Assembly (NCBI RefSeq): GCF_038562415.1 | Contig: NZ_JBCFBA010000001.1 | Coordinates: forward strand, 124,001-188,000 | Source of the DNA: Solidesulfovibrio sp. | GTDB lineage: Bacteria; Desulfobacterota; Desulfovibrionia; Desulfovibrionales; Desulfovibrionaceae | Length of the DNA stretch: 64,000 bases | Direction: 5' to 3' | Shown here: positions 14,365-15,930 of the stretch, piece by piece | How the letters are laid out: every line of letters begins with the position of its first letter | Position numbering within the stretch: position 1 is the first letter of the stretch | The notes under the pieces: generated by a model | What the model was told of the DNA's origin: nothing | Databases searched by the model: none | The model's input: the letters and a program-made list of their open reading frames with translations, nothing else | Translations under genes and position numbers: made by a program

Positions 14365-14847
14365 TCAATGCGCGGGCGGGCAGGCGGCCAGCCCGGGCAG
14401 GGCGACGCGGCCGAGCAGGAAATCGATTTCCTCGCGGGTGAGCAGGCCGCCGGAGGGTTTCGGCCTTGCGCCGAGGCTTGGCTCCGGGCCAAGGGCCGCC
14501 CGGGTCTGGGCCAGGAGGTCCTCGTCGGCCACGGGCAGCGTCCGCACGGCGCCAAGCAGGCCCGTGGCGGCCGCCTCGCGCAGGGACTCGGGCCAGGGCG
14601 GGCGGATGAGGGCGATGACCGTCAGGCCCGGCCGGACAGCCTTGAGCGTCCGGGCCGCCTCCAGGACGCCCCCGGCATCCCGGCCCAGGCCGCAGTAGGC
14701 CAGCCGGCAACCCGGACAGGCGCGCACCAGGCCGACCGCCTCGTCGAGATCCCCGGCGGCCAGGACCGTATGGCGCGGCGACAGCACCCGGACCAGGGCG
14801 GCGCGGTCTTTGGCATGGGGCGATAGGACCAGCACGCAGGGGGACAA
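14365..14847 (-). CDS. Degenerate receiver-like protein with FliM-like C-terminal peptide
   Basis: This 160-residue protein has a CheY-like fold by pattern (VLVLSPHAKDR, then LAYCGLG where a receiver has its phospho-Asp strand, then VIALIRP and VRTLPV), but the acidic pocket is missing, so phosphorylation is unlikely. Residues 135-146 read LLTREEIDFLLG, close to the CheY-binding peptide at the start of FliM (pattern L-S/T-x-x-E-I-D-x-L-L-x-G). A sigma-54-type promoter lies upstream, which fits a flagellar context. It could act as a decoy or adaptor for CheY. No close named relative comes to mind. Confidence 0.7.
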   Translation of the reverse strand: MSPCVLVLSPHAKDRAALVRVLSPRHTVLAAGDLDEAVGLVRACPGCRLAYCGLGRDAGGVLEAARTLKAVRPGLTVIALIRPPWPESLREAAATGLLGAVRTLPVADEDLLAQTRAALGPEPSLGARPKPSGGLLTREEIDFLLGRVALPGLAACPPAH

Positions 14848-14862
14848 GGCGACCTCCTCTCC

Positions 14863-14932
14863 GGTGAATCCGTGTGCCGGCCGCTCGCCCGGGCGAGCGC
14901 GGGGCCGGCGGTTCGGGGTTCACCGAAGTGAA
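14863..14932. repeat. Nested inverted repeats in the leader of the receiver-like gene
   Basis: GGTGAATCC at 14863-14871 pairs with GGGGTTCACC near 14915-14924. Inside lies the perfect 18-base palindrome CGCTCGCCCGGGCGAGCG at 14882-14899. A further small hairpin, TTCAC/GTGAA, spans 14919-14932. Together they would fold most of the 5' untranslated leader of the minus-strand gene that starts at 14847. Confidence 0.6.
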
Positions 14933-14947
14933 GCAAGACGTATGCCA
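14932..14947 (-). promoter_or_regulatory. Sigma-54-type (-24/-12) promoter
   Basis: On the minus strand this reads TGGCATACGTCTTGCT. It has the invariant GG and GC dinucleotides at the required spacing and matches TGGCA and TTGCW. Transcription would start near 14924, about 77 bases before the ATG of the receiver-like gene. Sigma-54 commonly drives flagellar genes in deltaproteobacterial sulfate reducers. Confidence 0.6.
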
Positions 14948-15006: not shown

Positions 15007-15930
15007 CTAGCGGCAATGCCCCTCGGCCTTGAAACTCTTGAAGAAGTCGCAGTCCCCCAGGTCGCACGCCTTTTTGTAGTCGGCGCAGGCCTTGTCCTGG
15101 TTACCCAGTCGTTCGTGGGCCAGTCCCCGGTTGGTGTAGGAGACGGCGTCGCCGCCGCGCAGGGCGATGGCCTTGTCGTAGTCGGCCAGGGCCTCGCGGG
15201 GCTTGCCCATGTTGCTGACGATATTGCCCCGGTTGTTGTAGAGGTCGGGGTCGCTCGGGTCGGCGGCGATGGCTTCGCCGAGCATGGTCAGGGCGGTCTT
15301 GTTGTCCCCGGCCGAGGCCGCCTTGGTGGCCATGGCCGCCAGGGAGGCCGCCGTGGCCGGATCGCGCTCCCGGGACGGGGCATTGATGGGCGTTGACCCG
15401 GAGGAGGCGTTGATGGGGGTCGATCCGGACGGGGCGTTGATGGGGGTCGATCCGGACGGGGCCGGTTTGGCGGCGACGGGTTCGGGCCGCACGAGGGCCG
15501 GGGCGGGGGCGGACGCCACGGGCTCGGGCCGGGTCACGACAGGGGCGGGCGCCACGGGCTCGGGCGCCTTGGCCGGGGCCGGTGTCGCAACGGTCGATGC
15601 CGGGGCCGCTTTCGGCGCGGGCGCGGCGGCCTGGCCAGGGGCCTTGGCCGGCGTCTGCCACAGGCCGCCCTTGGGATCGGGCGAGCCCGGGCGCGGGGGC
15701 TCGGGGATGGTCAGGGTCTCGGTGGCGGCATTGGGGGGAGCGCTGCTGACGGCGCCGGCGTTTTGCCGGTTGAGCTCCTGGCGATCCTGCTCCTCGGCGC
15801 GCATTTCCGGTTCGGCCTGGCGCATCTTGTCCAGGCGGCGCTTGAGGATCTCTTCCTGGGTCAGGGCATGGGACGCGGTGGCCGCGACGAAAAGCACCGC
15901 GGCCGCAAACAGGCAGGAAAGCCATCGCAT
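15007..15930 (-). CDS. Exported TPR protein with proline/alanine linker and 9-residue repeats
   Basis: The 307-residue protein begins with a signal peptide (cleavage likely after SHA near residue 22). A short charged helical region follows, then a long Pro/Ala-rich low-complexity linker (about 70-165), three near-identical 9-residue repeats (SGSTPINAP type), and a C-terminal block of tetratricopeptide repeats (about 190-300) ending in a cysteine-containing segment. TPRs bind peptides, and the linker probably spans periplasm or peptidoglycan. The gene starts 30 bases after the EF-hand/LysM lipoprotein gene, so the two probably form an operon. Confidence 0.75.
   Translation of the reverse strand: MRWLSCLFAAAVLFVAATASHALTQEEILKRRLDKMRQAEPEMRAEEQDRQELNRQNAGAVSSAPPNAATETLTIPEPPRPGSPDPKGGLWQTPAKAPGQAAAPAPKAAPASTVATPAPAKAPEPVAPAPVVTRPEPVASAPAPALVRPEPVAAKPAPSGSTPINAPSGSTPINASSGSTPINAPSRERDPATAASLAAMATKAASAGDNKTALTMLGEAIAADPSDPDLYNNRGNIVSNMGKPREALADYDKAIALRGGDAVSYTNRGLAHERLGNQDKACADYKKACDLGDCDFFKSFKAEGHCR
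15380..15460. repeat. Three tandem 27-bp repeats
   Basis: Three direct copies of a 27-base unit (GCGTTGATGGGGGTCGATCC plus 7 bases) occupy 15380-15406, 15407-15433 and 15434-15460. The last two are identical and the first differs at a few bases. They encode the repeated SGSTPINAP-type nonapeptide in the TPR protein, and copy number may vary between strains. Confidence 0.85.

Follow-up and report, generated by a model that had tools for sequence, protein, structure and literature searches.

The window analysed here, a stretch of 64,000 nucleotides from Solidesulfovibrio sp., was confirmed to contain a gene for a degenerate receiver with a FliM-like tail and a sigma-54 site. The best explanation, which is put forward tentatively, is that the encoded protein may be an adaptor with a pseudo-receiver and a docking helix that belongs to the flagellar regulon. 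The features of the locus are given below with the evidence for each of them.

14365..14847 (-), 160-aa pseudo-receiver gene with a TTG start: open reading frame, homologues, dN/dS.
14491..14847 (-), domain with a receiver fold at residues 1-119, without the phosphorylation residues: AlphaFold2, Foldseek, alignment.
14446..14490 (-), disordered linker, residues 120-134: pLDDT <50 at residues 124-134, 15% pairwise identity.
14410..14445 (-), conserved tail LLTREEIDFLLG, residues 135-146, with a predicted helix at 138-144: alignment, AlphaFold2, tail counts, motif scan.
14852..14858 (-), Shine-Dalgarno sequence AGGAGGT: read from the sequence.
14933..14947 (-), sigma-54 promoter TGGCATACGTCTTGC, -24 TGGCAT, -12 TTGC: sequence, orthologue conservation, consensus (PMC4641369).
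14991..15003 (-), candidate FlbD-type activator site (upstream activating sequence) GGCA-N5-TTCC, just past the stop of the TPR gene and with one half-site imperfect: orthologue conservation, motif (PMC3333781).

The open reading frame is protein-coding, and the ribosome binding site ends four bases ahead of its TTG start codon. The dN/dS values ranged between 0.21 and 0.68 over 11 pairs, the highest being found for a pair involving the window gene. The 160-aa protein had no match in Pfam at E<=1, a single weak and unrelated match in NCBIfam (E 0.17) and no match in a plasmid search. The gene belongs to no named family.

In the AlphaFold2 model, calculated with 21 homologues (mean pLDDT 84.1, pTM 0.71), residues 1-119 are predicted to form a (beta-alpha)5 receiver, for the most part with a pLDDT >90, followed by the disordered linker and the helix. 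For a second orthologue the same layout was obtained, the alignment being nearly identical, so that the two models are not independent; the confidence of the tail helix is moderate in both. A Foldseek search with the model matched receivers, with CpaE-type pilus-assembly proteins at the top and the CheY chains 4h60 and 7od9 among the matches listed. In a hand alignment, D12/D13 were found to be replaced by S-P, D57 by G, T87 by I and K109 by L, at positions which we take to be equivalent in CheY numbering. As regards the receiver domain PF00072, the predicted fold is thus present, and a profile match as well as the conserved D-D, D, T and K are absent. Both the replaced pocket residues and the predicted fold bear out the sequence-only reading, which had described a degenerate receiver without an acidic pocket. 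The consensus ALxRPPCP of the beta4-alpha4 region of the receiver is conserved as well as the tail helix being so in the same alignment.

The best-conserved stretch of the protein is the 12-residue tail, which is followed by 14 further residues. Over 20 rows its mean pairwise identity was 0.70, while the receiver reached 0.39, the linker 0.15 and the final 14 residues 0.20, and the conservation in orthologues on which the sequence-only reading had made its case depend was therefore found. In all 21 rows of the alignment, L136, T137, E139 and E140 are unchanged. The family pattern of the tail helix, which is short and amphipathic, was determined to be [ILV]L[TS]xEE[IV]x[FY]LL, with the near-invariant T-x-E-E as the mark of the pseudo-receiver family. 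The tail and identity counts exclude two plain receivers (L015 and L022) and L016, which is identical to L004 from the same genome; the tail counts additionally include L065, L057, L058 and L059.

The FliM contacts to CheY have been described as hydrophobic at L6, I11 and L14, the polar ones including Q8 and D12 (PMC3774744), and the FliM peptide binds CheY in the groove of alpha4 and alpha5 (PMC9126983). In Caulobacter, a change of the Ile/Asp pair of FliM was described to stop reversals, and CleA and CleD lost binding or localisation (PMC5677366). In 24 distinct tails of the pseudo-receiver family, the L6 position is L in 24/24, I11 is I or V in 22/24 and L14 is L or I in 24/24; some of these positions are fixed by construction since the search pattern itself required those of L6 and L14, and the pattern-free alignment (21 rows) agrees on the hydrophobic contact positions. 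The Asp12 position is a D in 10/24 tails. The position of Gln8 is occupied by R (11), Q (6), S (2), P (2) and by N, M and A (one each), and that of Ala13 by F or Y in 24/24, the FliM of the genus having an Ala. Two second-genus orthologues have E-R-S in place of E-I-D. The window tail itself carries I-D and an R at the Gln8 position and matches LSQxEIDxLL except that R replaces Q and T replaces S; the FliM of the genus reads ILDQDEVDALLRG, and the own FliM of the window genome carries MSKILDQDEVDALLRG. In the pseudo-receiver the motif is located C-terminally on a receiver fold, and not N-terminally on FliM or FliY. The earlier proposal that the tail copies the FliM peptide for CheY-P is not supported in that form: the hydrophobic contacts are retained, but just one half of the Ile/Asp pair is, and Gln8 and Ala13 are mostly or always replaced. 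The CheY-P claim is weaker because the polar contacts Gln8 and Asp12 are not kept family-wide.

A motif scan covered 528,212 bases in six-frame open stretches of >=60 aa. These were the window, 99,859 bases from 30 of the 150 receiver matches in the window genome and 364,353 bases from 24 neighbourhood loci. The family-tail, FliM-like and EIDxLL-core patterns matched only members of the pseudo-receiver family, of which the family pattern misses one in L127. A search of 15 genomes with the tail peptide, which has a low sensitivity to looser FliM-like motifs, also returned family members only. A chance origin of the tail was ruled out by its conservation and by the family-restricted motif scan.

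In a search of 40 genomes, the protein was present in 14/14 genomes of the genus and in 0/10 other genomes of the same taxonomic family, and the lone match in the 16 order-level genomes was a plain receiver. Among 297 genomes of the class, the family was detected with a profile in 15, comprising 12 of the genus and G046, G055 and G204 of the same taxonomic family. The gene is located directly downstream of a TPR gene in 12/14 genus genomes. On the other side, a simple gene caller found a lysA-like gene in 9 of these 12 syntenic genomes; in G001, G002 and G013 it found only the next gene of the shared order. Further copies are located at other loci, and those of G055 and G046 also adjoin TPR/LysM-type genes. 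D57 was lost in the G046 copy. In the G055 copy (L057, second genus), D57 and K109 are kept according to the hand alignment, together with a significant receiver match. In G204 (L058; L129:7424-8446 (-)) a receiver is followed by GVLTAEEVAFLV and a GGDEF domain, the motif forming an internal linker. We infer that the tail predates the degeneration of the receiver.

No chemotaxis or flagellar gene was found among the three scanned neighbours, a lysA-like decarboxylase, the TPR protein and a LysM/EF-hand protein. The TPR protein upstream (15007-15930 (-)) contains tandem SGSTPINA(P/S) repeats, with DNA repeats near 15380-15450. In another genome the locus was found twice on one contig (L110 and L111; G002:C3), inverted and with identical gene layout, which may be a duplication or an assembly artefact.

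The sigma-54 site was identified at 14947-14933 as TGGCAT-N5-TTGC with GG-N10-GC spacing; the published Desulfovibrio consensus is tGGcacg/tTGCt (PMC4641369). The strict form TGGCAY-N5-TTGCT occurs once in the window with 0.15 expected. GG-N8-TTGC is kept in 14/14 syntenic orthologues examined, including two of the second genus; the motif with sigma-54 spacing that had been read from the sequence is therefore supported by its orthologues, and a chance site was ruled out by the same conservation. Upstream of this element, GGCA-N5-T[GT]CC was found in 12/12 syntenic orthologues of the genus and in 0/2 of the second genus, the half-site being TGCC in 8/12 and TTCC in 4/12 (the clade of the window). 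The gap between the activator site and the GG of the sigma-54 element is 44 or 45 nt in 12/12 despite a varying intergenic length, and the intergenic DNA of the 12 orthologues is diverged except for the activator site, the sigma-54 element and the ribosome binding site. The strict activator site was absent within 450 nt of nine non-syntenic copies of the genus and three copies outside it; sites with one mismatch were found for L007 and L018 only.

The upstream site resembles in its letters the FlbD-type site published for DVU1063, a FlbD homologue and flagellar activator with the motif GGCAxxxxTGCC; the Caulobacter FlbD motif is CCCGGCAxxxxxTGCCGGG (PMC3333781). The DVU1063 motif is spelled there with four x, so that the N5 of the pseudo-receiver gene differs by one base.

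Next, the joint pattern GGCA-N5-TGCC-N25..55-TGG-N8-TTGC was searched in 14 genus genomes, resulting in 42 matches vs 3 for the reversed-pattern control. A negative control with an N9 spacer gave 17 matches vs 13. Eight of the 42 matches belong to orthologues of the pseudo-receiver gene. Of the 30 sites fetched and inspected, three that were translated lead to FlgB-like proteins, one of which (L163) was scanned and has the NCBIfam name FlgB. Three sites (L166, L170 and L173) are embedded in long open frames of the same strand, and no gene was recognised at other repeated sites, e.g. GGCAGGCGTTGCC; some of the 42 matches are therefore likely due to chance. The strict pattern has 0 matches in the window genome, where the own site has a TTCC half. 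With the looser TTCC variant (104 matches vs 36 for the control), the window site was found again, as were the syntenic sites in G001, G002 and G009, and the letters of one G009 site are nearly those of the flgB promoters. The relaxed pattern TGG-N9-TTGC, with the N9 spacer of the negative control, occurs 10 times in the window vs 9.95 expected and GGCA-N5-TGCC twice vs 6.8, so that neither pattern is meaningful by itself.

In the window genome, a gene that is flgB-like by resemblance is preceded by GGAA-N5-TGCC and a sigma-54 site. The joint layout was absent at five flagellin loci and at the flgF and flgE-like loci of this genome: GGCA-N5-TGCC but no GG-N10-GC is present at the flgE-like locus, and at flgF and two of the flagellin loci GG-N10-GC is present with no upstream activator site. 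Furthermore, a small protein MATS...DVVNWAYQYSLASAKL (L162, L168, L175-L177, L181 and L188) has the same layout of activator site and sigma-54 element as flgB; one member was scanned and had no significant Pfam or NCBIfam match, and a TTCC variant with letters similar to these sites is located in the window genome at C18:72273. A second small protein, MKIQTDQLTALRQTTEQS... (L164 and L178), lies behind the same promoter layout and has no Pfam or NCBIfam match.

A flagellar or motility role is likely because the pair of sigma-54 and DVU1063-like sites also precedes flgB in genus genomes. From the promoter letters, flagellar regulation of the pseudo-receiver gene appears very likely, and a role of its protein in motility fairly likely. 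A FlbD-like activator and sigma-54 would have the protein made at the same time as the basal body of the flagellum. Its receiver domain would be a fixed scaffold, independent of phosphorylation, and the tethered tail helix would dock in a hydrophobic groove of a partner. Judged by the tether and the helix, docking on another molecule is probable. The groove would most likely be the alpha4-beta5-alpha5 face of a receiver, either CheY or a CheY-like protein; docking on such a face is favoured by the conservation of L6, I11 and L14, which are contact residues in FliM. A different receiver or the own domain is also a candidate because the polar FliM contacts are not kept family-wide, and CheY itself, though an obvious choice, would be a rather doubtful partner. 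Once docked, the protein may tune or recruit something at the motor. A more far-reaching possibility, which is unlikely, is that one protein combines both faces of the CheY-FliM pair, namely a CheY-like domain dead for phosphorylation and a FliM-like docking helix. Under FlbD/sigma-54 control it would appear with the basal body and tune the motor in this genus only, by bridging or buffering CheY at the switch.

The tail could also be a true FliM mimic, which binds CheY-P and competes with FliM. The nearness of the window tail to LSQxEIDxLL, the family-wide hydrophobic contacts and a control region of flagellar type fit this explanation, but the frequencies of Asp12 and Gln8, the aromatic residue for Ala and E-R-S in the two second-genus orthologues do not, and it is considered improbable. 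Slightly more improbable is a main rival, an intramolecular latch or self-assembly, where the tail would bind the alpha4-beta5-alpha5 face of its own or of a second copy and keep the domain closed or dimeric. The beta4-alpha4 region conserved alongside the tail is consistent with this, and the alpha4/alpha5 groove is the FliM peptide site on CheY (PMC9126983), whereas the lack of conservation in the linker and the moderate confidence of the tail helix in both models speak against it. An archaeal CheF precedent was dropped; CheF binds another face of CheY (PMC9126983).

That the gene is a sigma-54-regulated receiver-like gene with no motility role, e.g. one that acts with the neighbouring TPR or decarboxylase genes in controlling the envelope or metabolism, would agree with its position downstream of the TPR gene and with the non-flagellar targets that also exist for DVU1063 (PMC3333781). 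Since the promoter pair is common to flgB, this is quite improbable. The least probable explanation is a relic, in which the motif once formed the helix between the receiver and GGDEF domains of an ancestral protein whose output domain has been lost. Such an architecture exists in a genome of the same taxonomic family (L058/L129), and the second-genus L057 retains D57 and K109 in the hand alignment; however, the tail is conserved beyond the domain and the promoter geometry is kept, which argues against simple drift.

If the flagellar-regulon adaptor is real, the small, fast-evolving family would be a clean test of how motor tuners arise, and its tail peptide could be used directly to probe docking faces like that of CheY. 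The likely FlbD/sigma-54 flagellar regulon of these sulfate reducers would also be extended to genes without names. Few proteins, among them Cle and those of the YcgR type, are known to control the motor by a route other than the phosphorylation of CheY.

No description of a receiver with a FliM-like tail was found in searches of an open-access library. The tail is like the N-terminal peptide of FliM in being a short amphipathic helix on a flexible tether with the L6, I11 and L14 positions kept; it is unlike this peptide in its location near the C-end of a receiver, in Gln8 and Asp12, which are not conserved, and in its T-x-E-E and aromatic residue. The candidate GGCA-N5-TGCC-type site together with the sigma-54 promoter resembles the layout of the FlbD/DVU1063 flagellar regulon, whereas the pseudo-receiver gene has no named family and none of the neighbours scanned is flagellar. 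We know of no FliM-like tail for FrzS-like pseudo-receivers. FrzS is similarly a motility protein with a receiver that has no Asp phosphorylation site (PMC1974792), but is a different protein in a different setting.

The nearest known system in working principle is that of the Cle proteins. Their ARR peptide is arginine-rich; an extension of this type was not found in the window protein, whose tail is of the LTREEIDFLLG type with one R within residues 135-146. The Caulobacter Cle proteins are described as CheY-like and controlled by c-di-GMP, with phosphorylation not needed, and act at the flagellar switch (PMC5677366). The pseudo-receiver is like them in having a receiver with a C-terminal extension, for which the link to the motor is here presumed; it differs in that the Cle ARR tails bind c-di-GMP (PMC5677366), whereas its own tail is acidic and FliM-like.
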